IMG/VR virus record: IMGVR_UViG_3300028418_000038
Coordinates: 1 to 20,124 of that record
Reading direction: 5' to 3' (one strand)
Length of the DNA: 20,124 bases
Source of the DNA: a virus
Each line of letters begins with the position of its first letter. Positions within the stretch are counted from its first letter, which is position 1. The notes beneath the pieces are model-generated. The model was not told where the DNA came from, did not search any database, and saw nothing but the letters and a program-made list of their open reading frames with translations. A program made the translations under genes and the position numbers. Of the stretch, positions 95 to 14,825 are shown piece by piece.

Positions 95-316
95 TTATTT
101 TAAATCTTCATGAGTTTTTGGAGAGAATAGTTCACTTCTCATATACTTTACTATCTTTACAGTCATTTCATCGAATAAATCAAAGTAAGCATCGTTAGTT
201 TCTGTGAAGTCATTATGTTCTTCAAGTTCATACTCTAGCTCGTTAGCTAGTTTTTCGTATAGTGAGTCAACTACTCTCCAAGTAATTTTAAGTTTTTCTT
301 CGTTAGTTAGTTTCAT
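95..316 (-). CDS. Hypothetical acidic small protein (73 aa)
   Basis: This frame encodes 73 residues and is rich in Glu and Asp (EYELEEHNDFTE region, residues 28-39), with predicted helices at both ends. There is no signal peptide, membrane segment or known motif. It lies three bases downstream of the lipoprotein gene (320-502) and is followed one base later by the next gene, which indicates co-transcription, probably from the element at 526-557. Small acidic proteins of this kind are common among phage early genes that act on host proteins, but that role is only inferred from size and position. Confidence 0.6.
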   Translation of the reverse strand: MKLTNEEKLKITWRVVDSLYEKLANELEYELEEHNDFTETNDAYFDLFDEMTVKIVKYMRSELFSPKTHEDLK

Positions 317-319: not shown

Positions 320-502
320 TTAGTGATAAGCTGGACAAGCATTGTAATTATGTACGTGACTTACAAGTTTACCGTTAAATTTCTTTTTAACACCTGTTTT
401 ATGAGCTGTTTGCATAGTTGAACATGATGTAGCTAAGGCTAGAATAACTATCATTACAATTCCTGTTAATGATGTTATAGCTGTTTTTTCTGATTTATTC
501 AT
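320..502 (-). CDS. Small lipoprotein with lipobox signal peptide (60 aa)
   Basis: Residues 1-10 are polar and charged (MNKSEKTAIT), residues 11-24 form a hydrophobic core, and a lipobox-like ATSC ends at Cys27. This is the layout of a signal peptide cleaved by signal peptidase II, so the mature product would be a lipid-anchored peptide of about 34 residues, with Lys-rich and His-containing segments (FNGKLVSHVH). A phage lipoprotein at the envelope could act in superinfection exclusion or membrane modification, but nothing in the sequence proves this. It is the first gene after the promoter-like element at 526-557, with a 23-base A-rich leader and no Shine-Dalgarno sequence. Confidence 0.7.
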   Translation of the reverse strand: MNKSEKTAITSLTGIVMIVILALATSCSTMQTAHKTGVKKKFNGKLVSHVHNYNACPAYH

Positions 503-525: not shown

Positions 526-557
526 TATTATCTATTAGTATTCGTATTTTGTTTGTA
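526..557 (-). promoter_or_regulatory. Copy 1 of the 32-base left-arm promoter-like element
   Basis: On the minus strand this reads TACAAAC, AAA, ATACGA, eight bases, then AGATAATA. The same blocks with the same spacing occur at 1060-1091, 1901-1932 and 2117-2148. It starts directly after the stop of the 558-809 gene and ends 23 bases before the ATG of the lipoprotein gene. AGATAATA sits where a -10 box would be and TACAAAC where a -35 box would be. Confidence 0.65.
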
Positions 558-809
558 TTATTTACACTGCTTGTTGTAGAAGTCAAGTATAAAACCATGA
601 GTTTCGTCTAGTGTTTCAAAGTAAAACTCTGCATATTCACTATTAATTTTATTATTTTCTATATCTTGTATAATCCACTCTTTCATGTCTTCTATATTAT
701 TCATAGCATAAACTAGTTGAGTTGAGGAATATACTTCAGTTCCATCTTTTTCTACAGGAGAAGTTAGTAAAGAACTAGCTACTCCAAGAGTCATTATTAT
801 TTTATTCAT
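558..809 (-). CDS. Hypothetical protein, possible N-terminal membrane or export segment (83 aa)
   Basis: This product has 83 residues. The first 17 (MNKIIMTLGVASSLLTS) are short, hydrophobic and preceded by one Lys, so they could be a weak signal peptide or anchor. The rest is acidic and helical with many Glu, Asp, Tyr and Phe residues and ends in NKQCK. The family is not recognised. Its ATG overlaps the stop of the upstream gene by one base (TAATG), so translation is probably coupled to it. Transcription most likely starts at the element at 1060-1091. Confidence 0.6.
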   Translation of the reverse strand: MNKIIMTLGVASSLLTSPVEKDGTEVYSSTQLVYAMNNIEDMKEWIIQDIENNKINSEYAEFYFETLDETHGFILDFYNKQCK

Positions 810-1054
810 TAGTTATTTAATTTAGTTATTAATTCGTGTATTTCATCATAGTTGAAAGTAGAATACACTTTGTCTACTTCTTGTTGTACATAATTGTACG
901 TAAGCTGTTTTGTTTCTACACCATACAGAGATACAATAAGTGAACGAGGTGAGTAACCATAAGGACTACGGTGTTTGTTAAAGATCTGTAACTTGCCACC
1001 TTCATTATTAGGATATAGTATTATTGTTAAGTTTTCTGTTTGTATATATTTCAT
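809..1054 (-). CDS. Hypothetical protein (81 aa)
   Basis: This frame encodes 81 residues with alternating short hydrophobic stretches (LTIILYPN, LIVSLYGV), suggesting a small beta-rich fold followed by a C-terminal helix (DEIHELITKLNN). There is no signal peptide or known motif. The ATG lies only five bases beyond the AGATAATA box of the element at 1060-1091. If that box is a -10 element, the transcript would start at or next to the start codon and be nearly leaderless. It is followed by the 558-809 gene with a one-base overlap. Confidence 0.6.
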   Translation of the reverse strand: MKYIQTENLTIILYPNNEGGKLQIFNKHRSPYGYSPRSLIVSLYGVETKQLTYNYVQQEVDKVYSTFNYDEIHELITKLNN

Positions 1055-1059
1055 ATTGT

Positions 1060-1091
1060 TATTATCTATTTAGTATCGTATTCAGTTTGTA
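1060..1091 (-). promoter_or_regulatory. Copy 2 of the 32-base left-arm promoter-like element
   Basis: The minus strand reads TACAAAC, TGA, ATACGA, eight bases, AGATAATA, sharing all fixed blocks with the other three copies. It lies between the stop of the 1094-1213 gene and the ATG at 1054, with only five bases between the AGATAATA box and that ATG. Confidence 0.65.
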
Positions 1092-1093
1092 AT

Positions 1094-1213
1094 TTATTTC
1101 AACCACTTATTATTATTCACCATTTCATCATGACACCATTGTTTCTCGTTATCACCAAGTTGATAGTATTCCATATCAAATTCTTCAAGAGCTATTTTTT
1201 CTATAGTTGTCAT
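1094..1213 (-). CDS. Hypothetical micro-protein (39 aa)
   Basis: An ATG at 1213-1211 opens a 39-codon frame ending TAA at 1096-1094. The product is acidic, with Trp and Tyr residues (FDMEYYQLGDNEKQW near residues 13-27). The ATG overlaps the upstream stop as ATGA (1210-1213), a coupling signal seen throughout this window and the main reason to accept so short a gene. The copy-2 promoter element follows immediately after its stop. No family is recognised. Confidence 0.55.
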   Translation of the reverse strand: MTTIEKIALEEFDMEYYQLGDNEKQWCHDEMVNNNKWLK

Positions 1214-1410
1214 ATTACTTGATTTAGTAGTTCATACACATCGTCTTGTTGAGATTTACTTAGTGTCATGAAAACACCATTAGCTTCTCCAGGATAATTA
1301 AGAACGTGATTTATACATTGTTGAGTGAGTTCAGCTTGATTTACTGTTTTGTTCATTTCGTCAAAAGCTTTTGACCAAGACCAGTTTGAAGGATTATTTA
1401 TATTATACAT
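1210..1410 (-). CDS. Hypothetical protein (66 aa)
   Basis: The product has 66 residues, starting MYNINNPSNWSWSKAFDEMN, helical and mildly acidic, with no signal peptide or membrane span. No family is recognised. It starts 11 bases after the end of the membrane peptide gene at 1422-1505 and overlaps the next gene by four bases (ATGA), so it belongs to the same leftward transcript, which probably starts at the element at 1901-1932. Confidence 0.6.
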   Translation of the reverse strand: MYNINNPSNWSWSKAFDEMNKTVNQAELTQQCINHVLNYPGEANGVFMTLSKSQQDDVYELLNQVI

Positions 1411-1421
1411 AGTTATTATTT

Positions 1422-1505
1422 TTAAGAGTACATTACGTAGTCACATATTGTTATTAGTATTGTACAGATTAGTATTGCGAAGAATAGTTTTTGTTCTTTA
1501 TTCAT
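1422..1505 (-). CDS. Single-span membrane micro-peptide (27 aa)
   Basis: An ATG at 1505-1503 opens a 27-codon frame ending TAA at 1424-1422. After a charged MNKEQK start, residues 7-24 are almost entirely hydrophobic (LFFAILICTILITIC), which is one transmembrane helix. It sits in the gap between recognised genes and has an A/T-rich leader (AAATAAATAATATG). Such peptides are common in phage early regions but can also arise by chance in A/T-rich DNA. The composition and in-register position support it only moderately. Confidence 0.45.
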   Translation of the reverse strand: MNKEQKLFFAILICTILITICDYVMYS

Positions 1506-1510
1506 ATTAT

Positions 1511-1576
1511 TTATTTTAGTAACCGAGTGAGAAATCGAATCTCACTTCCAACCATTTCGGCTATGTGCTGAGTCAT
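1511..1576 (-). CDS. Possible 21-codon peptide or structured RNA
   Basis: On the minus strand an ATG at 1576-1574 opens 21 codons (starting MTQHIAEMVG, ending RFLTRLLK) and stops at 1513-1511, six bases before the next ATG. The same bases can fold: a 7-bp outer stem joins 1520-1526 to 1557-1563, and a 6-bp stem (1527-1532 with 1540-1545) closes a 7-base loop reading TTCGATT on the minus strand, as in a tRNA T-loop. A micro-gene, an RNA element, or neither are all possible. I cannot decide between them from one sequence. Confidence 0.3.
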   Translation of the reverse strand: MTQHIAEMVGSEIRFLTRLLK

Positions 1577-1632
1577 ATGTTCGTTATATTTATACTCTCT
1601 AAAGTATGACTATCAACTAAGAGTTTAGTTTA

Positions 1633-1869
1633 TTATTTTACTGTTGATAATTCTCTACAGAATTTTGGAACAGTATTACTATTTGTGTAAGATTTGTACT
1701 GTTGGAAACATGGCATTTCTTCAAACTTTTGTTGAAATGTTGAGTAAATTTCATCATGATCATAAGTAAATGTTTGATCTTTTGAGTTAGTGAATGTAAT
1801 TACTGTATTACTTCCGAGTAAAGATTTTCTTATTACAAATCTTTTTGTTGTTAAGTTATTAGTTTTCAT
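1633..1869 (-). CDS. Hypothetical protein (78 aa)
   Basis: This frame encodes 78 residues with a basic N-terminus (MKTNNLTTKRFVIRK) followed by alternating beta-like segments (NTVITFTNS, QTFTYDHDEIY) and two Cys residues near the C-terminus. No known motif is visible. It is the first substantial gene behind the element at 1901-1932, with 31 bases of A/T-rich leader. It is probably the first cistron of a transcript running left through 1422-1505 and 1094-1410. Confidence 0.6.
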   Translation of the reverse strand: MKTNNLTTKRFVIRKSLLGSNTVITFTNSKDQTFTYDHDEIYSTFQQKFEEMPCFQQYKSYTNSNTVPKFCRELSTVK

Positions 1870-1900
1870 ATAGTTTATATTTATTTAGTTTAGTTATTAT

Positions 1901-1932
1901 TATTATCTTTTACTTGTCGTATTTAGTTTGTA
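1901..1932 (-). promoter_or_regulatory. Copy 3 of the 32-base left-arm promoter-like element
   Basis: The minus strand reads TACAAAC, TAA, ATACGA, eight bases, AGATAATA. All blocks and the eight-base spacer match the other copies. It ends 31 bases before the ATG of the 78-residue gene. Confidence 0.65.
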
Positions 1933-1996
1933 AAAGTGTATGTTAGTTTATTAGTTTATTTTAGTTGTTAAGTGTATCGCGCACTATCTTAATATC

Positions 1997-2089
1997 TTAC
2001 ATTATACTTATTAAGAATAGTAATTCATAAGTGATAAATGTTAAAGGTAAGATTACTTCGAGTGATGTTAGTTTATTTATTATAGTCAT
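1997..2089 (-). CDS. Single-span membrane micro-peptide (30 aa)
   Basis: An ATG at 2089-2087 opens 30 codons and stops at 1999-1997. Residues 11-29 (VILPLTFITYELLFLISI) form one probable transmembrane helix. It stands alone between two promoter-like elements, 27 bases downstream of copy 4, which gives it its own start signal and supports its being a real gene. It is similar in type, not in sequence, to the peptide at 1422-1505. No function is known. Confidence 0.5.
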   Translation of the reverse strand: MTIINKLTSLEVILPLTFITYELLFLISIM

Positions 2090-2116
2090 ATGTTATTTAT
2101 TTATTAGTTACATATA

Positions 2117-2148
2117 TATTATCTAAACAATGTCGTATATAGTTTGTA
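2117..2148 (-). promoter_or_regulatory. Copy 4 of the 32-base left-arm promoter-like element
   Basis: The minus strand reads TACAAAC, TAT, ATACGA, eight bases, AGATAATA. It is the rightmost copy, 27 bases upstream of the 30-residue peptide gene, and marks the leftward side of the divergent region. Confidence 0.65.
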
Positions 2149-2175
2149 GTAGTGAAAGCTAAAACAATCTAAACT

Positions 2176-2252
2176 CGTACGGAAATTCGATGACGCAATA
2201 TCGTATCGTAAATTCGCATATATGCAAAATATAATTATGAAAACGTACGGAA
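2176..2252. repeat. Direct repeat CGTACGGAA and palindrome in the divergent region
   Basis: CGTACGGAA occurs at 2176-2184 and again at 2244-2252, and each copy is followed within a few bases by CGCAAT. Between them are TATCGTATCGTA and the perfect ten-base palindrome GCATATATGC (2216-2225). This stretch, between leftward and rightward genes, is richer in CpG than its surroundings. It could be an operator, an origin of replication or a regulator binding site. Apart from a possible 22-codon frame at 2237-2305, I see no gene from 2149 to 2469. Confidence 0.45.
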
Positions 2253-2305
2253 CCCCGCAATTTAAAAATGCAAAAGGTTTTAAAAACAAAATATTATTGT
2301 GGTAG
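2237..2305 (+). CDS. Doubtful 22-codon peptide
   Basis: An ATG at 2237 opens 22 codons of a basic peptide (starting MKTYGTPQFK, ending NKILLW) and stops at 2303-2305. It would be the first rightward gene, but it overlaps the second CGTACGGAA repeat and has no coupling to a neighbour. A chance frame is at least as likely. Confidence 0.2.
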   Translation: MKTYGTPQFKNAKGFKNKILLW

Positions 2306-2338
2306 GGCAGCACATAACTTATATATATCTAAAACAGT

Positions 2339-2383
2339 GTGACATTAGCCTGTTAGAGCTACCTAATAAGGGGCATTTGTCAC
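2339..2383. other. 45-base imperfect hairpin in the divergent intergenic region
   Basis: GTGACA (2339-2344) pairs with TGTCAC (2378-2383). Inside this, GCC can pair with GGC, and TTAG (2353-2356) pairs with CTAA (2363-2366) around a six-base loop. No T-run follows on either strand, so it is not a typical Rho-independent terminator. It may be a leader structure, an operator, or an insulator between the two divergent transcripts. Confidence 0.4.
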
Positions 2384-2394
2384 CCTTGCTTTAA

Positions 2395-2431
2395 GTAAAT
2401 CTATTTATTTACGTGTAATAAAGTATAATTA
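2395..2431 (+). promoter_or_regulatory. Candidate rightward promoter with inverted repeat and TATAAT box
   Basis: GTAAAT (2395-2400) and ATTTAC (2407-2412) form an inverted repeat, followed by TATAATTA at 2424-2431. The first tail gene starts at 2470 after an A-rich leader. The same layout (short inverted repeat, then a TATAA-type box) occurs in the gaps before 5144 and 9030. No clear -35 box is visible. Confidence 0.35.
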
Positions 2432-2469
2432 GGTGAAAAACCAAAGAAATTAACAAAAAAATCAAGTAT

Positions 2470-2802
2470 ATGCCGATAATAACGTCTTATCCTTTTAAAA
2501 ATGCTCCATTAGATTCAGGTGATGAGATAATAATATCCGACTCTCAGAGTAATGATCCAAGGTTTAAGACTAAAACAACTAATTTAAAAGCAATAGGTAG
2601 TTTTTCTAGTGATTCTTTTGATTTTACTCAAGGTGTGCCTTCTGCTACATGGGTTATTGAACATGATTTAGATAAGTTTCCTTCAGTAACAGTGGTAAAT
2701 GAGTCAAAAGAGGTAATGATAGGTAATATACAATACATAGACAAAGATAATATAACAATAACGTTCAGTGCACCATTTTCAGGGTATGCATACTTAAACT
2801 AA
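2470..2802 (+). CDS. Small tail fibre or tail-associated protein (110 aa)
   Basis: Residues 1-25 match, without gaps, the start of the large fibre encoded at 6015 (SYP at 6-8, K10, P13, D18 and IISDS at 21-25 in both), which suggests a common N-terminal anchor module. The C-terminal half (about 57-110, starting SATWVIEHDL and ending FSGYAYLN) looks like a small beta domain of the kind I know from phage fibre tips. It may be a short fibre or an adaptor that uses the same docking site as the long fibre. It is the first gene of the rightward block, separated from the next gene by four bases. Confidence 0.6.
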   Translation: MPIITSYPFKNAPLDSGDEIIISDSQSNDPRFKTKTTNLKAIGSFSSDSFDFTQGVPSATWVIEHDLDKFPSVTVVNESKEVMIGNIQYIDKDNITITFSAPFSGYAYLN

Positions 2803-2806
2803 TACA

Positions 2807-4336
2807 ATGGCGATAAATTTTTTAGACAATATTCAGTTAAACCAGAATCAATTACTGGGAGCTAGATTAGAAAACGTAACATCGGATCCTTCTACTGGAA
2901 CTGCTAATGCTGGTGATATAATATTTAACAGCACATCCAATAAATTAAAATACTTTAATGGGACTGGTTGGATAAGTCTACCAGATGGCACAGGCATCGG
3001 TGGTAGTGGTACGGTTGGATCAATACCTGTATTTAACGGTACAACTGAGATTACAGATTCTCAACTAGAAACTACTGGTAGTGGTAGTACACAAAATTTC
3101 ATTTTTAATACTGGTGGATTTGTAGCACTAAAAGGAGAGCTTAGAGTTGATCAAGGAGGTATTTACGATTCAAATAATAGTATAGGAACTTCTGGCCAAT
3201 TACTTTCTTCTACTGGAACACAAATTGCTTGGATTAACGCTCCGGTTAGTTATACTAAGTGGATAGCAAATGGAGCAGCATCTTCAACTCAAGATGTTAA
3301 TGATGGAGACGCTTACGAACTAGATGAATCTACTGTAAGACCAGGTATATTTGCAGAACTTGTTACAAAATCAGGTACAACAGTAACACAACCTCTTGGG
3401 TTGTTTACAAAGAATATGTCATTGAGTAATCCAGCTGATTATACTACTGATGTATTATTATGGGGCCAAAATATTAATTCTACTGCTTTTAAAGTAAATA
3501 AAACGCACATCGATGATATACCAGTCAATGCATGGGGTCAAGCGACGGCTGCTGTTGACATGGGTGATTTTGGTATAATAAAAGTTCTAGACCCAGTGAA
3601 TGCTCAAGACGCTGCTACTAAAAACTATGTAGATAATGCTATTGTAGGAGGATTTAATGTAAAAGGTGGTTTCAATGCTAACACTGGTGTAACAGCAGTG
3701 GCTGGTACAAACTTATATACTAACACAGCTGTAGCAGTTGGTGATTATTACGTAGTAACTGTTGCAGGTAATTTCTTTGGTAACGCTGCTACTCCTTTAA
3801 CACCTGGTGATTCAGTATTAGCTCAAACAGCTGCTGCTTCAGGAAGTGCAAGTGAAAGTAACTTTGCAGTAATACAGTCTGACACTGATGTAGCTACTCT
3901 AACACAAATTGGTATTGGTAATGTTAATGTAAATGGGCCTGGTAATTTAGATGGCTTGAAAGCAAGTTATTCTTCAGGTACAGCTACAGTAGGGGTTGAC
4001 ATAGCAAATAATGCTTCAACTTTCAATGCTATAGGTGAAATGTTATTCTTAGTGTATGACGGTGGTGATACACAGACTAACTTGTCTTTACCTATAGAGT
4101 CTCTAGCAACTTATGTCGGCACAGCAAATACTTTTGCAGGAAACAATGGTAGCTCTGGTACCTCACACACGTTTACTCACAACTTAGGAACTTCTGATGT
4201 TATTGTTCAATTGTACGACACTAGTACAAAAGAAAATGTATACGCTAATGTAGATAGGACTAGTATTAATACAGTTGTTGTAACAACAGCAAGTAGCATT
4301 GCTGCAGGAGCTATAAGAGCTTTAATAACAAAATAA
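2807..4336 (+). CDS. Tail fibre / receptor-binding protein (509 aa)
   Basis: This Gly-, Thr-, Ser- and Asn-rich protein has phage fibre features. The N-terminus MAINFLD resembles MAVNFLD of the next gene. A segment GDIIFNSTSNKLKYFNGTGW (37-56) follows, then GIGGSGTVG (63-71), which also occurs at 47-55 of the 6015 product. The typical fibre repeat QDAATKNYVD lies at about 267-276. The C-terminal domain from about residue 453 (HTFTHNLGTSDVIVQLYD) resembles small beta-sandwich tip domains of marine phage fibres. It probably contributes to host recognition. The mosaic sharing with neighbouring fibres points to exchange of modules within the phage. Confidence 0.75.
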   Translation: MAINFLDNIQLNQNQLLGARLENVTSDPSTGTANAGDIIFNSTSNKLKYFNGTGWISLPDGTGIGGSGTVGSIPVFNGTTEITDSQLETTGSGSTQNFIFNTGGFVALKGELRVDQGGIYDSNNSIGTSGQLLSSTGTQIAWINAPVSYTKWIANGAASSTQDVNDGDAYELDESTVRPGIFAELVTKSGTTVTQPLGLFTKNMSLSNPADYTTDVLLWGQNINSTAFKVNKTHIDDIPVNAWGQATAAVDMGDFGIIKVLDPVNAQDAATKNYVDNAIVGGFNVKGGFNANTGVTAVAGTNLYTNTAVAVGDYYVVTVAGNFFGNAATPLTPGDSVLAQTAAASGSASESNFAVIQSDTDVATLTQIGIGNVNVNGPGNLDGLKASYSSGTATVGVDIANNASTFNAIGEMLFLVYDGGDTQTNLSLPIESLATYVGTANTFAGNNGSSGTSHTFTHNLGTSDVIVQLYDTSTKENVYANVDRTSINTVVVTTASSIAAGAIRALITK

Positions 4337-4366
4337 CAATAATAAAATAAAATAAAATTAAATTAA

Positions 4367-5059
4367 ATGGCCGTAAATTTTTTAGATGGAATAACTATTG
4401 GTGGTGAACTTACTACAACTGGCGGTACTAATAATATAACAACTACCAATGGTTCGAGCAGTTTGTACTTGCTTAACCTAGCAAGAACTACTACATCTTT
4501 AACTACTGCAGGCAATGTAGGTATTGGAACCACTGCTCCTGCTGAAAAACTAGAAGTTGCTGGAAAAATTAAAATAACTGGTACTGCAAATTTTATAGAT
4601 ACTACTAGAAATGCTTCATCACAAGCTAACTATATTAGATTCTATGACTCCTCTACTTCGTCAGTTGAAGCTTATCTAGGCTTTACTAGTAACAATAGAG
4701 ACTTTAAGGTTAATAGTGCTAACGGAAGCGGGACAATAACTTTGCAGGCTGGTGGTAATACAGCTGTAAGAATATCAGACACTGGAAATGTAGGTATCGG
4801 AACTACTAGTCCTACAAAAAAACTAGATGTAGATGGATCTGCAAGATTTAGAAATGACACACAGGTAGATAAAGCATTTACAGCTGATACCTATATATGT
4901 AGCGCTAATGGCCCTTTCGGCCCTAATCCAGGTATAAACGCAAATGTAGTTATAGCAACTAAATTTAACCAAATTACTTTGACATTTGCTTCTGGTCTTT
5001 TAATAGGCTATGTATGTGATGGTGAGGAATGTCCTGAACAACCACCAAACCCAGAATAA
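4367..5059 (+). CDS. Tail fibre / adhesin with GIGTT repeats and Cys-containing C-terminus (230 aa)
   Basis: The protein begins MAVNFLD, like the preceding fibre. It has two copies of a motif G-N-V-G-I-G-T-T-x-P-x-x-K-L-x-V (around residues 50 and 141) flanking a 90-residue module (60-149) that is duplicated in the 6015 product. The C-terminal 60 residues differ from all neighbours, contain Cys residues (YICSANG, YVCDGEECPEQ) and end in a Pro-rich tail, so this end may be the variable, surface-exposed part. It starts after a 30-base leader of repeated AAATAAAAT-like sequence and has no Shine-Dalgarno sequence. A role as a short accessory fibre is inferred. Confidence 0.65.
   Translation: MAVNFLDGITIGGELTTTGGTNNITTTNGSSSLYLLNLARTTTSLTTAGNVGIGTTAPAEKLEVAGKIKITGTANFIDTTRNASSQANYIRFYDSSTSSVEAYLGFTSNNRDFKVNSANGSGTITLQAGGNTAVRISDTGNVGIGTTSPTKKLDVDGSARFRNDTQVDKAFTADTYICSANGPFGPNPGINANVVIATKFNQITLTFASGLLIGYVCDGEECPEQPPNPE
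4544..4813 (+). repeat. 90-residue fibre module, copy A
   Basis: This encodes residues 60-149 of the 4367 product. It aligns without gaps to copy B (6462-6731), with 53 of 90 residues identical in my hand alignment, and more distantly to copy C (7209-7484). Shared anchors include EKLEVAGKIK, QANYI, GFTSNN and the closing GIGTT. Confidence 0.7.
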
Positions 5060-5089
5060 ATAAATTTTAAAGATAAAAGTAAAAAACAC

Positions 5090-5114
5090 TCACAATGTGT
5101 GAATACTATAAATA
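5090..5114 (+). promoter_or_regulatory. Candidate rightward promoter: short inverted repeat plus TATAAATA
   Basis: TCACA and TGTGA form a 5-bp inverted repeat at 5090-5102, followed four bases later by TATAAATA (5107-5114). The latter is identical to the T4 late-promoter consensus, although A/T-rich DNA gives such boxes by chance. It lies in an 84-base gap before the first of the basic GAS-motif genes at 5144. Confidence 0.35.
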
Positions 5115-5143
5115 AGTGCACAAACTAATTAAAATAAAAAATC

Positions 5144-5596
5144 ATGATGAAAAAAGATAATGACGGCGCTTCCAGAAAGTTTGAAAAGAAAACTGCAGGA
5201 GGTAAAAGAAGAGCTCTTAAAAGAGCTAAAAAAAGAAAATACGGCGGGGGTGAATCTGGAAAAGCCAAAGAGGCTGCTCAAATATCTAGAGAGTTTAATG
5301 AAGGGCAACTTGATATGATGGGTGCTAGTAAGAAAAAACATAAAGGCGTTAAAGATGCTGACACTAAGTATATGCCAGTTATAGACAGAGAAAAAGATGC
5401 AATGAAAAAAGGTGCATCAATGTCTAAAAAATACGGTAGTTCTATGAGTGGGCAATCTTATGATGCTAAAGAAGCCTATAACAAAAACCTATCTGCTTCT
5501 GCTAGATTACATTATCTAGAAAACAACAGAGCTGATAAAAAAGCTAAAGGAAAAGGACACAGAAGTCCTATAATGAAGCATATGAGAGGGGTTTAA
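5144..5596 (+). CDS. Very basic low-complexity protein with GAS motifs (150 aa)
   Basis: This Lys- and Arg-rich product of 150 residues has no recognised domain. It carries the motif GAS three times, at residues 8-10 (within DNDGASRK), 60-62 (MMGASKKK) and 90-93 (KKGASMSKK), and ends RSPIMKHMRGV. The same motif recurs in six other proteins encoded further right. A strongly basic protein among structural genes could bind DNA in the head, act as scaffold, or be an internal virion protein. I cannot tell which. The start chosen is the first ATG of an ATGATG pair; using the second would remove one residue. It lies one base upstream of the next gene. Confidence 0.6.
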   Translation: MMKKDNDGASRKFEKKTAGGKRRALKRAKKRKYGGGESGKAKEAAQISREFNEGQLDMMGASKKKHKGVKDADTKYMPVIDREKDAMKKGASMSKKYGSSMSGQSYDAKEAYNKNLSASARLHYLENNRADKKAKGKGHRSPIMKHMRGV

Positions 5597-5597
5597 T

Positions 5598-6011
5598 ATG
5601 AGCTTAAAAACTAACAGGTACGGAGCTAGCCAAAGAAATGGGTTTACTCCTGGTGGAAAGACAAATAGATCAATGACTAATTTAGGTACTAAGACTATTA
5701 ATAAAGCAGCTAACTCTAACAAGAAGCCACAACACACTGATTCAGGACAAAATTATAGAGATGCAAACAATAGTAAGGTTTCAGGACTTCAAGTTGATGA
5801 AGGTAGAACATCTCCTGTTGTAAGAAAATCTCCTGAAAGACCTCACGTTGTAGCTAAGCCTGGTGCTCTTAAAAATCAAGGCGGAATAACTGAAAAGCTT
5901 TATTTAGATGGTAAGTCTAAAACCCCTGCCCCTAAGACTAAGAGCAAGGGAAATTACCGAGCTAAATCAGAATTGATAAATGTCCAGTTAAATCCGGTTT
6001 TAAATAAATAA
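5598..6011 (+). CDS. Hypothetical basic Asn/Lys-rich protein with N-terminal GAS motif (137 aa)
   Basis: This 137-residue protein is basic and appears largely disordered (many Asn, Ser, Lys, Pro and Gly). GAS occurs at residues 9-11, close to the N-terminus (MSLKTNRYGASQRN), as in three other genes here. A segment around residues 70-95 is rich in Val, Pro and Arg (RTSPVVRKSPERPHVV). No family is recognised. It lies one base after the previous gene and three bases before the large fibre gene, so all three are likely one transcript and the product is likely structural. Confidence 0.55.
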   Translation: MSLKTNRYGASQRNGFTPGGKTNRSMTNLGTKTINKAANSNKKPQHTDSGQNYRDANNSKVSGLQVDEGRTSPVVRKSPERPHVVAKPGALKNQGGITEKLYLDGKSKTPAPKTKSKGNYRAKSELINVQLNPVLNK

Positions 6012-6014
6012 ATT

Positions 6015-8960
6015 ATGGCTGTACTATACTCTTACCCTATAAAATCAACACCCGCGAATAGAAATGATTTAGTTATAATATCAGATTCAAGAGATGGTAA
6101 CAAAACTAAGCAAATAGCTGTAGCTAATCTACCAGGTAGTGCTAGTTTTACTGGTATTGGTGGGAGTGGTACAGTTGGTTATATTCCAAAGTTTAGTACA
6201 AGTACTGAAGTAGTAGATAGCACAATATATGAACAAGGTTCTAATATAGGTATTGGAACTACTAGTCCTGGTTTTAAGTTAGATGTAGCGGGTAATGCTA
6301 GGGCAAGTTATTTTGCTTTAAGATCAAACGAATCTTTACCAGCAGAAGCGTCATTTATCTATAGACCAGAAACAGGCGTTATTGGCTTTGGCACAGCATC
6401 AACAGAAAGGATGCGTATTACTTCTGGAGGTTTAGTAGGTATTGGGACAGTTACTCCTAGTGAAAAATTAGAAGTTGCTGGTAAAATAAAAGTAACTGGC
6501 ACTAATGATTTCATAACAACTGTTAGAAACTCAGCAGGACAGGCTAACTATATTAAATTCTACAACACCGCTACTTCGGCAAATGAAGCTTATATAGGTT
6601 TTACTAGTAATAATAAAGATTTAAAGTTTCAAAACCTAGACACAATTGGTACAATTTCTTTACGTACTGGTAGCGCCGTAGCTTTGAGAGTAACAGAGGC
6701 TGGTAGAGTAGGTATTGGAACTACTGTCCCTACTGATAAGTTAACCGTAGCTGGTAATATAAAAACAACAGCAGGATTTATTAGCACTGTAAGTTCTGGT
6801 TATTCTACCTTGGAACTAGGTGGACCTACTGGTGCTTATATAGATTTAAAAAGCCCATCTACAGATGATTATGATTTAAGAATTATAAGCGGTGGCTCAG
6901 GTGGATCGTTTTGGACTGGTGGGTTTGGACACTTGATGACTTTAAGTGATACAGGTAACGTGGGAATTAGCGTTACTAGCCCTGCGGCTAAGTTAGATAT
7001 AACAGATACAGTTAACCAAACTTCAATACGTGTTACAAATAATGAATACAATAATTATTTAATACAAAAAAGACGTACTGATGATACCCAAAAGCTAGGT
7101 ATTAAAGAATTTGGAAGCAATGGTGGATTAGCTTTAGTTACCGGAGGTACTGAAAGATTAAACGTGAATAATTTAGGCAATGTAGGTATCGGAACTACTG
7201 ATCCACAAACACTCTTACATGTTCAAAACGGTAAAATAAGAGTTAATGGAGGTGGAGCAAATCAAATACAGTTGCACAGAAATCCATCAACACAGTCTAA
7301 TTATATTGAGTATTATGATACAGCAACCACTTCACAAGAAGCTTTTGTTGGTTACACTAGTAATAATAAAGATTTTAAAATTTACAATAGCGGGGCTTCT
7401 GGTACTATTTCTTTTTTAACTAGTAGTGGTACAGCTATGAATATAACTAACTCACGTAAAATAGGTATTGGCACAGCTATTCCAGACTCTATACTAACGG
7501 TAAAAGCAGATACTGCTAATGTTGGTATACCTGTTATAAAAGCTTCTGTTAATGGATTTGCTAACGGTTACACTCTTATAGGAGATAATTATACTACAGG
7601 TGGAAGTCAATTTAATCTTGGAGTTTCTTATAGCGGGTCAAATGGTGTTCTTTCAAGAGGTGTAAAAGTTAGTAGCACAGCTGCTGATGTTTTTTTATCA
7701 TCTCAAGATCAATATTCCCTGTATTCTCAAGCTTTTGTATTGCAGAATGATGGTTCTTTTAGATTTCTTAATACCTCAACAAGTGCTAATACCCCTGTTG
7801 ATACAGCTGTTAGCTTAAGTGAAAGAATGCGTATAACTAGAGATGGTAAAGTAGGTGTTGGAACTACTGCTCCAACCGCTAGATTACATATTCAAGATAC
7901 GTCAGGGTCCACTTCTGAATTTAAAATGTCAGCAGCAAGTAACGTTGCAAATTATGCTTACTTGAAAATGACAGATAACACTGTTAACACTGCTAAACTA
8001 ACGCTTGGTACTACTTATGGGTATAGTACAGATAAGGATGCAATAACCATGGTTAATGGTAATGTAGGTATTGGAACTACTAATCCTTCTGCATCCGGTC
8101 TTGAGGTAGCTAATGGTTCTAGCATTTCTGGTGGACAAACACAAATATATATTACTGGTAGTACAAACGGTAGATCAGTATTAGGTTTAGGAGATGGTGC
8201 TAATAAGCTTGTTCAGCATATTATGACAGACCACACTCAAAACATGATGAGTTTTCATACTCAAGCTTCTACAGTTGCTAATAATGAGAGAATGCGTATA
8301 ACTAGTAGTGGTAATGTTGGTATTGGAACCACTAGTCCAACTAATAAACTTACTGTAGGTACTATTGGTAGTGAAACTAGCATAGCATGTGCTTCTACTG
8401 GTTTTGATAGTCTTAAATTAGGAAGTTTAACATTTCCAATTGCCGCTGGATGGTATAGAGTGGCGCAATGGACAGTTGCAGGCGCTAGAGGCGGTGCTCG
8501 TGTAGACGTGTGCCTGACAGGAGGTGCCTTCGCACCAGTTACATACTCTATTGATTATTTTAAATCTTACACTCAAACAGGAACAGAGCACACTTTAAAA
8601 CTAGAACAATATGGTGGGGGAGCTTTTATAAATAAAGCTAGAATTGCGTTTGATGGTGCTAGTACTTTTGTTGAAGTTTATAAAATAGATACTACAACGC
8701 AAGGCACGATGCAGACTCAAATTCACTTTAACAGACTTATTGGTGAAAGTGGAGGTTCTCTTCCTTTACTTGGAACTGCGGCTTCAGGTAGTGGTTCAAC
8801 ACTTTTAAAAGAAGTATCTTTTATTCCAAAAGGAACTTCTGTAGAAACTCTAAGAGTAGAAGGTGGGAATTTAAATTTAAAAAACTTACCTACTTCTGCT
8901 ACTGGTTTATCAGCTGGAGATATTTGGAACAACTCAGGCGTTTTAAATATAATTTCATAA
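6015..8960 (+). CDS. Large tail fibre / tailspike with nine GIGTT-type repeats (981 aa)
   Basis: This is the longest gene in the window. Residues 1-25 share an anchor module with the 2470 product, and GIGGSGTVG at 47-55 is shared with the 2807 fibre. Nine motifs of the form G-x-V-G-I-G-T-T-x-P follow, starting near residues 79, 142, 233, 317, 391, 484, 614, 685 and 769. Three are preceded by ERMRIT. Two copies of a 90-residue module also found in the 4367 gene lie at 150-239 and 399-490. The C-terminal region (about 780-981) is different, with a jelly-roll-like segment (FPIAAGWYRVAQW) and an end reading GDIWNNSGVLNIIS; it is the probable receptor-binding part. Such GIGTT proteins are known from phage and bacterial adhesins and are presumably trimeric beta fibres. 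Confidence 0.8.
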   Translation: MAVLYSYPIKSTPANRNDLVIISDSRDGNKTKQIAVANLPGSASFTGIGGSGTVGYIPKFSTSTEVVDSTIYEQGSNIGIGTTSPGFKLDVAGNARASYFALRSNESLPAEASFIYRPETGVIGFGTASTERMRITSGGLVGIGTVTPSEKLEVAGKIKVTGTNDFITTVRNSAGQANYIKFYNTATSANEAYIGFTSNNKDLKFQNLDTIGTISLRTGSAVALRVTEAGRVGIGTTVPTDKLTVAGNIKTTAGFISTVSSGYSTLELGGPTGAYIDLKSPSTDDYDLRIISGGSGGSFWTGGFGHLMTLSDTGNVGISVTSPAAKLDITDTVNQTSIRVTNNEYNNYLIQKRRTDDTQKLGIKEFGSNGGLALVTGGTERLNVNNLGNVGIGTTDPQTLLHVQNGKIRVNGGGANQIQLHRNPSTQSNYIEYYDTATTSQEAFVGYTSNNKDFKIYNSGASGTISFLTSSGTAMNITNSRKIGIGTAIPDSILTVKADTANVGIPVIKASVNGFANGYTLIGDNYTTGGSQFNLGVSYSGSNGVLSRGVKVSSTAADVFLSSQDQYSLYSQAFVLQNDGSFRFLNTSTSANTPVDTAVSLSERMRITRDGKVGVGTTAPTARLHIQDTSGSTSEFKMSAASNVANYAYLKMTDNTVNTAKLTLGTTYGYSTDKDAITMVNGNVGIGTTNPSASGLEVANGSSISGGQTQIYITGSTNGRSVLGLGDGANKLVQHIMTDHTQNMMSFHTQASTVANNERMRITSSGNVGIGTTSPTNKLTVGTIGSETSIACASTGFDSLKLGSLTFPIAAGWYRVAQWTVAGARGGARVDVCLTGGAFAPVTYSIDYFKSYTQTGTEHTLKLEQYGGGAFINKARIAFDGASTFVEVYKIDTTTQGTMQTQIHFNRLIGESGGSLPLLGTAASGSGSTLLKEVSFIPKGTSVETLRVEGGNLNLKNLPTSATGLSAGDIWNNSGVLNIIS
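6462..6731 (+). repeat. 90-residue fibre module, copy B
   Basis: This encodes residues 150-239 of the large fibre. It is the closest relative of copy A in the 4367 gene, with the same length and no gaps. Confidence 0.7.
7209..7484 (+). repeat. 92-residue fibre module, copy C
   Basis: This encodes residues 399-490 of the large fibre. It keeps the pattern (SNYIEYYD, EAFVGYTSNNKDFK, closing GIGTAIP) but is clearly more diverged from A and B than they are from each other. Confidence 0.6.
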
Positions 8961-8977
8961 AAAAATTAAATAACCGA

Positions 8978-9001
8978 ACTATCGAGTGATAGTATATAAT
9001 A
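8978..9001 (+). promoter_or_regulatory. Inverted repeat overlapping a TATAAT box upstream of 9030
   Basis: ACTATC (8978-8983) and GATAGT (8988-8993) form a perfect 6-bp stem with a four-base loop, directly followed by TATAATA (8995-9001). There is no T-run, so a terminator is unlikely. An operator overlapping a promoter for the 9030 and chaperonin genes is plausible. Confidence 0.4.
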
Positions 9002-9029
9002 ACCAACGTTTAACTTAAAACCAAATACA

Positions 9030-9320
9030 ATGACGTTTTTATATACCCGCACTAACACGTGGTCTAGTGCACCACAACCAACAGAAGATACCATTAAGTA
9101 CTGGAAACATATTTCACAGAAGAAAAACTGGAGAATAGTTCAACTATCTAATGGATTTTTACAAACCGAATATAAATCTATCGACTCAGATGACTGGATC
9201 GATGTTACCAGAAGAGAAACAATAGCTGGAGCAGAACAAGCAATAGATGCTTCTATTGAACATTATTCTAAAAAGCTAGAGTTTAACCAAGGGCCTAAAG
9301 TAGTTAAAACCTTTAAGTAA
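9030..9320 (+). CDS. Conserved-looking hypothetical phage protein (96 aa)
   Basis: The 96-residue product has a compact core (KKNWRIVQLSNGFLQTEYKS, 31-50) followed by DDWIDVTRRETIAGAEQAID and a Lys-rich end (GPKVVKTFK). The alternation of beta-like and helical parts suggests a small folded domain. I recall similar proteins from Bacteroidota phages but know no function for them. It is the first gene after the inverted repeat/TATAAT element and lies 32 bases before groEL, so it probably shares the chaperonin transcript. Confidence 0.6.
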   Translation: MTFLYTRTNTWSSAPQPTEDTIKYWKHISQKKNWRIVQLSNGFLQTEYKSIDSDDWIDVTRRETIAGAEQAIDASIEHYSKKLEFNQGPKVVKTFK

Positions 9321-9352
9321 TATTCAAAACAAATCAAATTAAATCAAATTAA

Positions 9353-10900
9353 ATGCAAGAAATAAAGTTAGTTAAAAATCTGGCTTTTGGCGATACAGCT
9401 AGAAGTCAGATATTAACTGGCGTTGAAAAACTTACTAATGCAGTAGGGTCAACGTTAGGTGCAAGTGGTAAGTGTGTTATATTAGAAGACGCTAATGGCA
9501 TGCCACAAATAACAAAAGATGGAGTAACAGTAGCTAATTCAATCACGTTGCAAGATTCTATAGAAAACATTGGAGCAACACTTATTAAACAAGCAGCTCA
9601 ACGAACAGTGTCAGATGCTGGTGATGGAACAACTACAGCAACTGTTTTAGCAAAAGCAATATTAGATCAAGCACAAGCTCACAATCTACTAGAAGACAGT
9701 AGAATAATGAAAGAAGGTATTGATAGTGCTGTTAAAAAGGTATTAAACTATTTAAATAAAAATAGTAAGAAAGTAACAGGTAGAAAAATAGACCAAGTTG
9801 CTACTATATCAGCTAATAATGATATAGAACTAGGTAAAGTTATAGGAGAAGCTTTTAAGTTAGTAGACGAAACAGGAGTTGTTATGATGGAAACAAATGA
9901 ACAACCTGAGACTGTAGTAGAGTTAATAGAGGGTGTTCAATATGATCAAGCATTAAAGAACAACCATTTTATTACTAATAAAGAAAAAGGTACAGCTGAA
10001 CTAGATAATCCATTAGTTCTTATAGTTGAATCAGTTATACCTAATGTTAGAAAAATACAGTCAGTCCTTGAACATGTTATTAAAAATGGTAAGAGCTTAC
10101 TTATCATTGCTGATGTTGACCCACAAGTGGTTTCCGCGCTGGCCATGAATAAATCTAAAGGCAATATAAAAGTTAACATCATAGATGCACCAGTATACGG
10201 AATCAGCAAAAAAGATGTATTATCAGATCTATGTGCTGTGACTGGTGCTACACTTATTAATGAAGACTTAGGAGATGATATGGATATTATACAACCTGAA
10301 CATTTAGGATCATGTATTAAATCTATAACAAACCACGAAGATACAATATTAAAAGTTGATTTAACAGAAAATAAAGAAGTTAAAGAAACTATTGCTTTAT
10401 TAGATAAGAATATAAAAGAAACTAAAAACCCTAATATTATAGTTAGACTAGAAAGAAGACTAGCTAAACTAAAAGCTAAAGTAGCTACGGTTAAAGTTGG
10501 GGCAAACTCAGAAATAGAATTAAAAGAGAAGAGAGATAGAGTAGAAGATGCTATTTGTGCTACAAAAGCTGCGATTAAGGAAGGTATAGTACCAGGCGGT
10601 GGTATAGCTTTATTAAATGCTGCACAACATTTAGAACCTAAGTCAATGGGCGAAGAAGTACTTTATTGTGCTATCAAAGAGCCTTTTAAATTGATACTAA
10701 AAAATGCTGGTGTAGAAAATTATGAAACTCCAGAAGTAAAAGGTTTAGGATTAAATGTGGTTACAGGAAAAACGGTTGATATGGTAAAAGCCGGAATTAT
10801 AGATCCTTTACTAGTTACTAAGAGTGCATTACTTAACGCAGCTTCAGTAGCTACTACTATATTATCAACTGATTGTGTAATTAATAACATAAGAGCATGA
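9353..10900 (+). CDS. groEL: Phage-encoded chaperonin GroEL (515 aa)
   Basis: This is a type I chaperonin, an ATP-driven folding chamber in the cytoplasm. The equatorial domain shows the ATP site: KDGV with D56, GDGTTTATVLA with D91, and RVEDA with D399 (equivalent to the catalytic Asp398 of E. coli). The apical domain (about 185-370) includes IPNVRKIQSVLEHVIKNGKSLLIIAD. It has 515 residues against about 548 in E. coli; the Gly-Gly-Met tail is absent and the protein ends in NNIRA. LGPKGR of host GroELs is LGASGK here. The apical stretch that in E. coli reads DRGYLSPYF is DQALKNNHF, so several known substrate-binding residues differ. It probably folds a phage protein such as the capsid or a fibre. 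It overlaps groES by four bases (ATGA), with groEL first, the reverse of bacteria. Confidence 0.95.
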   Translation: MQEIKLVKNLAFGDTARSQILTGVEKLTNAVGSTLGASGKCVILEDANGMPQITKDGVTVANSITLQDSIENIGATLIKQAAQRTVSDAGDGTTTATVLAKAILDQAQAHNLLEDSRIMKEGIDSAVKKVLNYLNKNSKKVTGRKIDQVATISANNDIELGKVIGEAFKLVDETGVVMMETNEQPETVVELIEGVQYDQALKNNHFITNKEKGTAELDNPLVLIVESVIPNVRKIQSVLEHVIKNGKSLLIIADVDPQVVSALAMNKSKGNIKVNIIDAPVYGISKKDVLSDLCAVTGATLINEDLGDDMDIIQPEHLGSCIKSITNHEDTILKVDLTENKEVKETIALLDKNIKETKNPNIIVRLERRLAKLKAKVATVKVGANSEIELKEKRDRVEDAICATKAAIKEGIVPGGGIALLNAAQHLEPKSMGEEVLYCAIKEPFKLILKNAGVENYETPEVKGLGLNVVTGKTVDMVKAGIIDPLLVTKSALLNAASVATTILSTDCVINNIRA

Positions 10901-11157
10901 AAGCAGTAGGTAAGTTTATAGTAATTGAACCAATCAAAGAAGTTGATGTTCAAACAAAAGGTGGATTAATTCTAGCTGAAAAGCAAAGAGAAGATGTTAG
11001 GTATAGAAGAGCTAAGGTTATAGAACCTGGCTCTGAAGTATCTGTATTAAAAAAAGGTGATGAAATTTATTATGATAAATCATCTGGATTTAATATTGAA
11101 ATAAACAAAGAAGAGTATAAAGTTATTAAAGAGTTTGATGTAGTTATTATACTATGA
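10897..11157 (+). CDS. groES: Phage co-chaperonin GroES (86 aa)
   Basis: The 86-residue product has the GroES layout: FIVIEP at 7-12, a mobile loop TKGGLILAEK (20-29) in which LIL takes the place of the IVL that docks on GroEL, then KKGDEIYYD (52-60) and a closing strand EYKVIKEFDVVI. It is shorter than E. coli GroES (97 residues), mainly because the roof hairpin is reduced, as in T4-type co-chaperonins that enlarge the folding chamber. That consequence is inferred. Its ATG overlaps the groEL stop and its stop overlaps the next start (ATGA both times), so the three genes are translationally coupled. Confidence 0.85.
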   Translation: MKAVGKFIVIEPIKEVDVQTKGGLILAEKQREDVRYRRAKVIEPGSEVSVLKKGDEIYYDKSSGFNIEINKEEYKVIKEFDVVIIL

Positions 11158-11588
11158 GAAAGTTAACTTCTAGTGATTTAAAAGAACTAGGTTTGCTTAA
11201 ACATTATAGAATAATTAGAAAATGGGCTTGTAAAATTAATGACTTGACAGATGCAGATTTAGAACTATTGATATATCTTGATGCTATAGATATGTTTACT
11301 AAAGATGATTTTATAAAAGGTACGTACTCATTCAGCTGGGACAATAGGCGCTGGAACAGATTATTGAAACAAGGGTGGATTATAGTGTGGAGAAAAAGAA
11401 ACCACACAACTCAAAAATATCACATATATAAAGTTTCCTTTAAGTGCAAACAGCTGATAAGTCGCATGTACCGTATTATGCTAGGCGAAGAAGATATGCC
11501 TACAACTAAATTAGAAAAAAGTAATAGATATAGTTATAAAGTAATTACTAAATCAATAAATTACGTTAACAAAGACAAAACAAGATAA
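11154..11588 (+). CDS. Winged-helix-like protein, possible DNA-binding (144 aa)
   Basis: This is a basic 144-residue protein with the order helix (NDLTDADLELLIYLDAID), recognition-helix-like stretch (FSWDNRRWNRLLKQGWI), a beta wing (VWRKRNHTTQKYHIYKV), then a long helix (FKCKQLISRMYRIMLGEEDMP). That resembles a MarR-type winged helix. I recall close relatives in flavobacterial phages without an assigned function. Coupled by ATGA to groES, it might regulate this transcript or serve as a structural or packaging factor; DNA binding is an inference from the fold pattern only. Confidence 0.5.
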   Translation: MRKLTSSDLKELGLLKHYRIIRKWACKINDLTDADLELLIYLDAIDMFTKDDFIKGTYSFSWDNRRWNRLLKQGWIIVWRKRNHTTQKYHIYKVSFKCKQLISRMYRIMLGEEDMPTTKLEKSNRYSYKVITKSINYVNKDKTR

Positions 11589-11589
11589 T

Positions 11590-12693
11590 ATGCCTTATAA
11601 ACAACCAAAAAACACTCCTTTACATAATGACGGCGCATCTGCTGTAGGCGCGGTATTAGGAATAGGTAAACTAGCTCTTATGGGGGTTAAAGCACTTAAA
11701 GTTGCTAAAGCAGCTAAAGTAGCAGCAACAGCGGCAAAGGCAGCTAAAGCAGGTAAGGCAGCAGCTACAGCAGCAAAGGCAGCTAAAGCAGCTAAAGCAG
11801 GTAAAGCAGCTATGACAGCGGGTAAATTCGCTAAAGGAACCAAAGCAGCAAGTACTACAGCGAAAGCTACTAAAACAGCTGCAACAACAGCTAAGGCAAC
11901 TACAAAAGGTGCTGTTAAGCTAACTCAAAATACAATGCCTCAGATTCAGAAACTTGGTCAAGCTGGTCAAAAAAGTGTTGCTAAAGCTCAAAAATTAGCA
12001 AAATTCTCTTCTAAACATCAGAAGCTAGGTAAAGCTATAGAAAAAACTAAATCACTTGCTGGAAAAACTAAAGGAAGAGCAGAGGCAGTACAAGGAAAAA
12101 TAGATAAAGGCTTTGATAAGGCAGCTGAAATTACAGGTCAAGACGCGGGTGATTTAAAAGCTAAAGCTGGTGAAATAGGTATGAATAAAGTTAACGAAGT
12201 AGAAGCAGCAATAAAATCAAAAAATGATAGTTCTCTTTCAGCTGAAGACTTTAATAAACCACTAGGCTTAACACAGAGTGAAACAGAACCTCTAGATCCA
12301 AGATACGAAGCAAAAGACCAACCAAGTTCTTATAGTAATCCTTCTGGAGCCTCAATGAAAAGCAATATGCCTAAAGGCTATAAATCTAGTTCTGCTAGCA
12401 ATTTTAAAACTCCAAAAACTGATTATCAAAGATTTTTTCAAAACTTAGCTAACAACAGTGTAAATGCCAATATAGGTGGTGTTAAAGTTAATGTAGGTCA
12501 TTTAGGTTTAATAGCTGGTCATTTAGTTGGCAAAGGCGTTGATGCTGTTAAAACAAAGAAAAGATTAAACGGTATTAAAAAACAAAATAAAATTAAAAAC
12601 GAATCAGCGGCTAGAGCTGAACAGGAGAAAAAGAATAAAAGCATCATGCAACAATTGGATGATGAAAACAAAATGGAAAATTTAAAAGGATAA
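11590..12693 (+). CDS. Lys/Ala-rich protein with histone H1-like repeats and GAS motifs (367 aa)
   Basis: Near the N-terminus lies DGAS (14-17). Residues 35-110 consist almost only of Ala, Lys, Gly and Thr in AAKAAKAGK-type repeats, as in histone H1 tails and Hc1-like DNA-condensing proteins, then a Gln/Lys-rich helical stretch. GASMK occurs at 253-257. The C-terminal part (about 280-367) contains a more ordered segment, DYQRFFQNLANNSVNANIGG, and a Lys-rich end. It could be a DNA-condensing or internal virion protein. The repeat also resembles an amphipathic helix, so a membrane-active ejection protein is another option. It lies one base after the preceding gene. Confidence 0.6.
   Translation: MPYKQPKNTPLHNDGASAVGAVLGIGKLALMGVKALKVAKAAKVAATAAKAAKAGKAAATAAKAAKAAKAGKAAMTAGKFAKGTKAASTTAKATKTAATTAKATTKGAVKLTQNTMPQIQKLGQAGQKSVAKAQKLAKFSSKHQKLGKAIEKTKSLAGKTKGRAEAVQGKIDKGFDKAAEITGQDAGDLKAKAGEIGMNKVNEVEAAIKSKNDSSLSAEDFNKPLGLTQSETEPLDPRYEAKDQPSSYSNPSGASMKSNMPKGYKSSSASNFKTPKTDYQRFFQNLANNSVNANIGGVKVNVGHLGLIAGHLVGKGVDAVKTKKRLNGIKKQNKIKNESAARAEQEKKNKSIMQQLDDENKMENLKG
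11728..11811 (+). repeat. Tandem repeat encoding TAAKAAKAGKAA-type units
   Basis: Two adjacent units (11728-11766 and 11767-11811) encode residues 47-59 and 60-74, both starting TAAKAAKA and ending GKAA. The second has one extra AAK. The third-position differences (gcggca against gcagca) show the duplication is not recent. Confidence 0.6.
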
Positions 12694-12696
12694 ATT

Positions 12697-12849
12697 ATGC
12701 AAAAACCAGCAGGAAAAGTATTAAACACCGGTAAGCCCGTTGTTGGTACAAGAGTAATGAGATCAAACAACTCTACGATAATGCCTACTCTTAGGAAAAT
12801 AGATAACGTGCCTTACAAAGGTAACGCTGTTCTTAACGCTCAGAAATGA
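12697..12849 (+). CDS. Hypothetical small basic protein (50 aa)
   Basis: An ATG at 12697, three bases after the previous stop and in the local TAA-ATT-ATG pattern, opens 50 codons. The product is basic and has no predicted membrane span; it carries VVGTRVMRSNNSTIMPTLRK near residues 15-34 and ends NAVLNAQK. No family is recognised. It overlaps the next gene by four bases (ATGA), which supports its being translated. Confidence 0.5.
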   Translation: MQKPAGKVLNTGKPVVGTRVMRSNNSTIMPTLRKIDNVPYKGNAVLNAQK

Positions 12850-13010
12850 TAGCAGGTGAAGATTTGAAGCTGTATTTGTTAAATGCGTCTTCATTTACTC
12901 TAGCTAGCTTAAACTGGATAGAACCGGCATTAGAAATACTTTTGTTATCTTTAACAATTGGTTATACCGTGCATAAGTGGTATTTAATAAATAAAAAAAA
13001 TAAATTATGA
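12846..13010 (+). CDS. Small single-span membrane protein, possible holin-like (54 aa)
   Basis: The 54-residue product has an N-terminal amphipathic part (MIAGEDLKLYLLNASSFTL), a hydrophobic span at about 28-45 (ALEILLLSLTIGYTVHKW) and a short basic C-terminus (INKKNKL). It is linked to both neighbours by ATGA overlaps (12846 and 13007). A holin accessory, pinholin or ejection-related membrane peptide would fit. A two-span holin is present at 17348, so this gene need not be the holin. I recall similar short proteins from flavobacterial phages. Confidence 0.55.
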   Translation: MIAGEDLKLYLLNASSFTLASLNWIEPALEILLLSLTIGYTVHKWYLINKKNKL

Positions 13011-13522: not shown

Positions 13523-13524
13523 TT

Positions 13525-13869: not shown

Positions 13870-13871
13870 AA

Positions 13872-14667: not shown

Positions 14668-14825
14668 TGGGAAAAATTAGTCCAGCTTGTAAAGCTGCAG
14701 CAAAAAAGAAATTTAAAGTATGGCCAAGTGCTTATGCTTCTGGCTGGGGTGTGAGATGTACTAAAGCTGGTGGACCAGGTAACTATGGTGGCGGATCTAA
14801 AAAAAGAAACCGTGGGAAAAGTTAA
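14667..14825 (+). CDS. Small basic phage protein with WPSAYAS motif (52 aa)
   Basis: The ATG overlaps the preceding TAA by one base. The 52-residue product contains FKVWPSAYASGWGVRCTKAG (about residues 16-35) and ends in a Gly- and Lys-rich tail. The WPSAYAS block is one I know from many uncultured marine phage proteins, where it occurs alone or joined to other basic domains; its function is unknown. The last 41 bases overlap the start of the next gene in another frame, so the two may once have been, or may still be, made as one protein. Confidence 0.6.
   Translation: MGKISPACKAAAKKKFKVWPSAYASGWGVRCTKAGGPGNYGGGSKKRNRGKS

Follow-up and report, generated by a model that had tools for sequence, protein, structure and literature searches.

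The 32-bp element repeated on the minus strand of this viral DNA is, with high probability, a promoter of small early genes in marine Bacteroidota phages, and its predicted reader is a phage-encoded sigma factor acting on the host core RNA polymerase. The motif, its spacing, its single orientation, its intergenic position, a start-site signature and its co-occurrence with the sigma gene are all taken directly from the sequences. The window (the whole stretch of DNA analyzed) is an IMG/VR fragment of 20,124 bp with 33% GC. It contains four exact copies of the element on the minus strand, at 526–557, 1060–1091, 1901–1932 and 2117–2148, as listed in a first-pass annotation. No further match was found when up to three mismatches were allowed, a threshold at which 0.02 matches would be expected by chance.

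Each copy precedes a minus-strand gene, and the distances to the ATG (23, 5, 31 and 27 nt for the copies at 526, 1060, 1901 and 2117, respectively) span the 5 to 31 nt originally described. The first copy on the early strand, TACAAACTATATACGACATTGTTTAGATAATA at 2117–2148, has a predicted start at G2111 and a 22-nt leader in front of a 30-aa open reading frame (1997–2089, minus strand) that is a weak gene call. The second, TACAAACTAAATACGACAAGTAAAAGATAATA at 1901–1932, is identical to the full group consensus; its predicted start is A1895, and a 26-nt leader would precede a 78-aa early gene (1633–1869, minus strand) that matches no Pfam family. Members of this gene's family occur in each of the five full-length genomes that carry the motif, at 44–65% identity to the member in genome G030. 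For the third copy, TACAAACTGAATACGATACTAAATAGATAATA at 1060–1091, the predicted start is A1054, the A of the ATG of an 81-aa early gene (809–1054, minus strand), which would be expressed from a leaderless message. An 83-aa gene (558–809, minus strand) overlaps the end of this gene and is probably carried on the same transcript. The fourth copy, TACAAACAAAATACGAATACTAATAGATAATA at 526–557, has a predicted start at A520 and an 18-nt leader before a 60-aa early gene (320–502, minus strand); a 73-aa gene downstream (95–316, minus strand) probably belongs to its transcript. At window positions 2108–2113, and at many other sites with long leaders, the sequence ATGTAA often spans the predicted start, and +1 then falls on the G of what looks like a start codon followed directly by a stop.

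The divergent structural half of the window (2470–20,124, plus strand) encodes GroEL, GroES, an amidase, a holin and the beginning of the terminase large subunit (start at 19,396), and is free of the element. The intergenic region between the two halves (2150–2470) contains repeats of CGTACGGAA as well as the inverted repeat GTGACA...TGTCAC; the predicted fold of 2300–2400 does not exceed that of shuffled sequences. Scans of the window for tRNAs and Rfam families returned zero matches, matches to a generic Escherichia coli promoter were no commoner than in shuffles, and a search for a host-type TAnnTTTG promoter serving the early cluster yielded nothing consistent. Among annotated relatives, the nearest to the window is an uncultured Manatee Spring podovirus, with 61% over the terminase stretch; the relatives in culture infect Flavobacterium, Cellulophaga, Tenacibaculum and Maribacter. 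Phages of the Pachyviridae, Pervagoviridae and Elemovirus (phi18:3, phi38:1 and elemoA) are related to the motif-bearing phages in terminase, portal and further structural proteins and share the divergent early and late halves, but differ in that both the motif (at up to three mismatches) and such a sigma factor are absent from them.

Other viral contigs contain at least 119 stretches with the exact pattern, and 161 exact copies were counted in the loci examined, a few of which are the window's own. A relaxed pattern yielded 489 non-redundant sites from IMG/VR contigs, which define the consensus as TACAAAcTAAATACGA, eight free bases, a weakly conserved a, and GATAATA. The three bases described at first as variable proved to be a conserved TAA (T 81%, A 87%, A 97% in the 489 sites). 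Within AGATAATA, the first A is the least conserved base (A 68%, G 17%), and GATAATA is nearly invariant. All 41 motif-bearing records carry between 2 and 20 copies, always on one strand only, while a reversed-pattern control gave none. The spacing is as rigid as the window's four copies had suggested, with GATAATA at the identical distance behind 404 of 412 upstream halves and at any other distance behind none. The sites also avoid genes: 21 of 448 (5%) fall within open reading frames of at least 60 aa, as against 352 of 400 random windows (88%). In the five full-length genomes, the sites cluster in about 4–8 kb of the small-gene region and are missing from the structural half save for rare poor matches, in agreement with contigs that were selected by their terminase and consist mostly of the structural half.

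Downstream of the element, the sequences carry the signature of a transcription start. At position 38, six bases past the motif and 7 nt beyond the final T of GATAAT, a purine is found in 371 of the 375 sites that lack an ATG there; G accounts for 46%, compared with at most 13% at neighboring positions, and position 37, immediately before the predicted start, is almost never G. Seven nucleotides is the usual distance between the −10 block and the start of transcription in bacteria. Independently of this, the distances to the next ATG show one sharp spike: in 106 of 448 sites (24%), the ATG begins precisely at position 38, whereas other distances up to 50 nt are mostly represented by 3–16 sites each. 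Sites of this kind, about a quarter of the promoters, are predicted to yield leaderless mRNAs. Because a purine start at a fixed distance is combined with rigid spacing and the ATG spike, we interpret the element as a sigma-type promoter. Like such promoters, it consists of two blocks at fixed spacing, lies upstream of genes in a single orientation, and has a −10-type block with a purine start 6–8 nt downstream. Its predicted layout is TACAAACTAAATACGA at −37 to −22, GATAATA at −12 to −6 and the start at +1.

A comparison of the five full-length motif-bearing genomes with four motif-less relatives provides a candidate for the reader: a protein of the sigma-70 family, about 250 aa long, is present in all five of the former and in none of the latter (the G030 ortholog is at 19,006–19,764 of locus L136, minus strand). 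The Pfam profile for region 2 (Sigma70_r2) scores above its cut-off in three of the five orthologs and more weakly in the other two, and that for region 4 (Sigma70_r4) reaches an E value of 3.6e-7 in one ortholog and is weaker or absent in the others. The protein matches PHROG 351, 'RNA polymerase sigma factor', across both regions (E 1e-21), and sigma chains in the PDB, including sigma-A (E 5e-9). A Foldseek search with a structural model listed 50 matches, all of them sigma chains of transcription complexes (E values from 3e-6, probability 1.00). Their TM scores of about 0.3 and rmsd above 20 arise because domain placement differs, this placement being uncertain in the model itself (pTM 0.48). 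Among the matches listed from a collection of 50,697 phage records, sigma factors are remote, with 22–27% identity, and none is a close relative. Binding of this protein to core RNA polymerase and its direction of initiation are predicted. One other observation from the same comparison concerns a 3,216-aa protein of G030 (27,541–37,191; locus L135, 7541–17,188, plus strand), homologs of which are likewise found in all five motif-bearing and none of the four motif-less genomes; it gave no convincing Pfam or PHROG match.

The association of sigma gene and motif extends well beyond the full-length genomes. As expected for the regulon of an alternative sigma factor, the sigma gene accompanies the promoters within one genome in 36 of the 41 motif-bearing records, compared with its presence in 0 of the 4 relatives that lack the motif; of the remaining motif-bearing records, four of 52–58 kb, possibly incomplete, have no detected sigma gene and one has a broken copy. 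A reverse search starting from the sigma factor found at least 403 viral-contig stretches that encode it. The motif accompanies it in 67 of the best 80 of these loci, with 325 sites on the strand of the sigma gene, 5 on the opposite strand and 0 for the reversed-pattern control. The other 13 have zero sites at up to four mismatches. Two of them (L196 and L219) carry a variant upstream block with unchanged spacing and GATAATA, and most of the others are cut near the sigma gene; L168 extends about 10 kb upstream and still has no site. The terminase-selected records, which are mostly fragments of the structural half and serve as a consistency check rather than a strong test, agree: all three with the sigma gene have the motif (one as a single site with three mismatches), and 27 of the 29 without it lack the motif, the two exceptions having sites near contig ends. 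In G017, one site lies directly upstream of the sigma gene, an arrangement that would permit self-amplification.

The 20-kb window itself ends before the expected sigma locus and does not include the gene. Its relative G041, which is 93% identical in the terminase stretch and 90% identical in DNA over a shared 1.27 kb, has both the sigma gene and a site, and G012, which matches the early region of the window at about 81% identity over about 770 nt, has the sigma gene and ten sites. Because these close relatives encode it, we infer that the window's genome carries this sigma factor as well. Of the options raised in the first-pass annotation, which include protein recognition and promoter function, a phage-specific sigma factor is the best supported, by gene co-occurrence and by the start-site signature, which that annotation had not mentioned.

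From these data we infer that the sigma factor reads the element, that it uses the host core polymerase, and that the genes are transcribed early or in the middle of infection. With its regions 2 and 4, the phage protein would very probably replace or supplement the host sigma on the host core RNA polymerase. Region 4 would probably read the upstream block TACAAACTAAATACGA at −37 to −22 and region 2 the −10 block GATAATA at −12 to −6, with transcription predicted to begin on the purine 7 nt after GATAAT and, at about one promoter in four, on the A of the ATG. In E. coli sigma70, base −12 is read by residues Gln437 and Thr440. The equivalent positions of the phage protein, in an alignment to PDB sigma factors, are an invariant Gly and an invariant Arg, and 99% of the sites have G as base −12; an arginine reading guanine would account for G in place of the usual T. 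The evidence for the upstream block is less specific. In a column-by-column analysis of covariation between sigma and motif, several region 4 residues rank high, with relatedness uncorrected. A partial Mantel test linked the upstream block to region 4 and to no other part (partial r 0.34), but the spacer, which served as the negative control, correlated with region 4 as well (0.28). It is thus only suggestive that divergence of the upstream block follows region 4.

At 16 bp, the upstream block is longer than what sigma region 4 usually reads, and the adjacent HTH protein may share in its recognition or control the sigma factor. A protein with a weak C-terminal helix-turn-helix (HTH) match is encoded directly upstream of the sigma gene in 77 of the 80 loci, often with a 10-nt overlap. 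In T4, the activator MotA reads the upstream block of middle promoters. By analogy, the host sigma might use the −10 block while a phage DNA-binding protein reads the 16-bp block, and such an activator would fit an upstream block that is long and differs between genomes while GATAATA stays constant (natural variants include cACGaAGCAAACACGT in L219 and TCGAAA.aTAATAC.A in L214). We nevertheless judge activator dependence of this kind unlikely. The −10 block differs from the TAnnTTTG of the host, and a dedicated sigma factor with regions 2 and 4 exists. Moreover, three loci without a detectable neighboring HTH gene (L204, L214 and L224) keep the AATAC of the upstream block and are altered in its distal bases, so that the HTH protein is probably not the sole reader. 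In a weak test, motif distance also failed to track HTH distance for the upstream block.

Conserved sites before early genes would look alike if they were operators for a phage repressor or activator and not themselves promoters. Such operators, which we consider very improbable, would leave unexplained the purine at a fixed distance, the avoidance of G before it and the ATG placed on that same base in 24% of sites; in addition, the previous stop codon often directly adjoins the site, leaving no space for a separate intergenic promoter. We assign a similarly slight chance to a promoter for a phage RNA polymerase, be it T7-like, N4-like or a crAss-like virion enzyme. The string ATACGA-N8-AG is similar to the T7 promoter core TAATACGACTCACTATAG, and giant virion proteins are encoded in the genomes, but this option, also raised in the first-pass annotation, gained no support from searches that were weak tests: PF00940 was found in 0 of 40 contigs with a search whose control was silent, a scan revealed no convincing DFDxD catalytic motif, and those giant proteins that were compared with Pfam and PHROGs matched no polymerase family. 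The start signature, furthermore, is at position 38 and not at the G of GATAATA. An RNA-level element in the 5′ leader, acting as a translation or processing signal, would suit the constant orientation just upstream of start codons, but it is hardly credible given that the predicted transcript begins past the element and leaderless cases leave it outside the mRNA.

Near-perfect copies of the promoter are also present in flavobacterial genomes: in L314 and L317 (one Bacteroidetes MAG), in L318 and L319 (two Flavobacteriaceae MAGs) and in L316. The contigs that bear them are 15 kb to 1.4 Mb long; the copies lie outside long open reading frames, number 1–3 per genome, and in several cases precede small secreted proteins. 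In L318, a ParB/methylase-like gene is about 6 kb away from the site and a tyrosine-integrase-like gene at least 1.5 kb away. L317 encodes a 348-aa chromosomal protein (1750–2796, minus strand) whose C-terminal part matches the phage family of window gene 1633–1869 (38% identity to the G002 homolog, E 1e-12) and which has no Pfam match. A phage-like sigma factor was not found in the flavobacterial genomes that bear promoter copies, which counts against the main interpretation. An additional host sigma was considered and rejected: the four genomes with chromosomal sites that were searched show one long sigma (a frame of 287–308 aa) and shorter, mostly ECF-sized ones, and none matches that of the phages. 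One could imagine that these copies wire host or satellite genes to the phage sigma so that expression begins only once that factor is present, as an infection alarm or within a parasitic element, together with a two-protein reader composed of sigma and HTH protein; we regard this combination as speculative and rather unlikely. Two further loci, L312 and L320, are labelled as Ilumatobacteraceae and Rhodobacteraceae MAGs and are short contigs that resemble phage DNA binned with unrelated MAGs; L312 encodes both the sigma and the HTH gene.

The sigma factor proposed as reader has precedents in other phages. T4 gp55 and SPO1 gp28 and gp34 are phage-encoded alternative sigma factors, and like them the protein described here would redirect the host core polymerase to promoters found only in the phage. 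It differs from them in belonging to phages of Bacteroidota and in serving small early rather than late genes. T4 gp55 lacks a normal region 4, whereas this factor has regions 2 and 4, and its putative promoters, unlike those of the T4 and SPO1 factors, have a 16-bp upstream block and are predicted to be leaderless in a quarter of cases. T4 middle promoters (MotA/AsiA) similarly combine a conserved block in the −30 region with a −10 element, but without a dedicated phage sigma or a 16-bp upstream block, and no member of the MotA/AsiA families was identified here. As in sigma-A promoters of Bacteroidota and Flavobacterium, there is a −10-type block with the start about 7 nt downstream. The flavobacterial sigma-A consensus, however, is TAnnTTTG at −12 to −5, and the mismatch to it noted at the outset holds across the group, with the nearly invariant GATAATA in its place (PMC9723704). 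The predicted leaderless share of about 24% of sites likewise compares with 5.5% of mRNAs in F. psychrophilum (PMC9723704). Phage AR9 also pairs a phage-specific set of promoters with transcription machinery supplied by the phage; its early promoters, AAATATATATTAT-(6N)-G, are used by a virion RNA polymerase and give leaders of 26–491 nt (PMC5312081), in contrast to the sigma factor proposed here and to predicted leaders that are short or missing.

No description of the motif or of this sigma factor was found in the searchable open-access PMC literature. Phage sigma factors as such are already known; what appears to be undescribed there is the pairing, along with the promoter's 16-bp upstream block, the tendency toward leaderless messages and the host phylum. 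The analysis offers a promoter code, and a likely reader of it, for a large marine group of Bacteroidota phages, seemingly one without a cultured member, and makes the early genes and start sites of these phages predictable from sequence. An orthogonal pair of sigma factor and promoter is a possible expression tool for Bacteroidota, and the natural variants of the upstream block constitute a ready test of co-evolution between sigma factor and promoter. The high predicted share of leaderless messages, finally, bears on how translation operates in a phylum that lacks Shine-Dalgarno signals.
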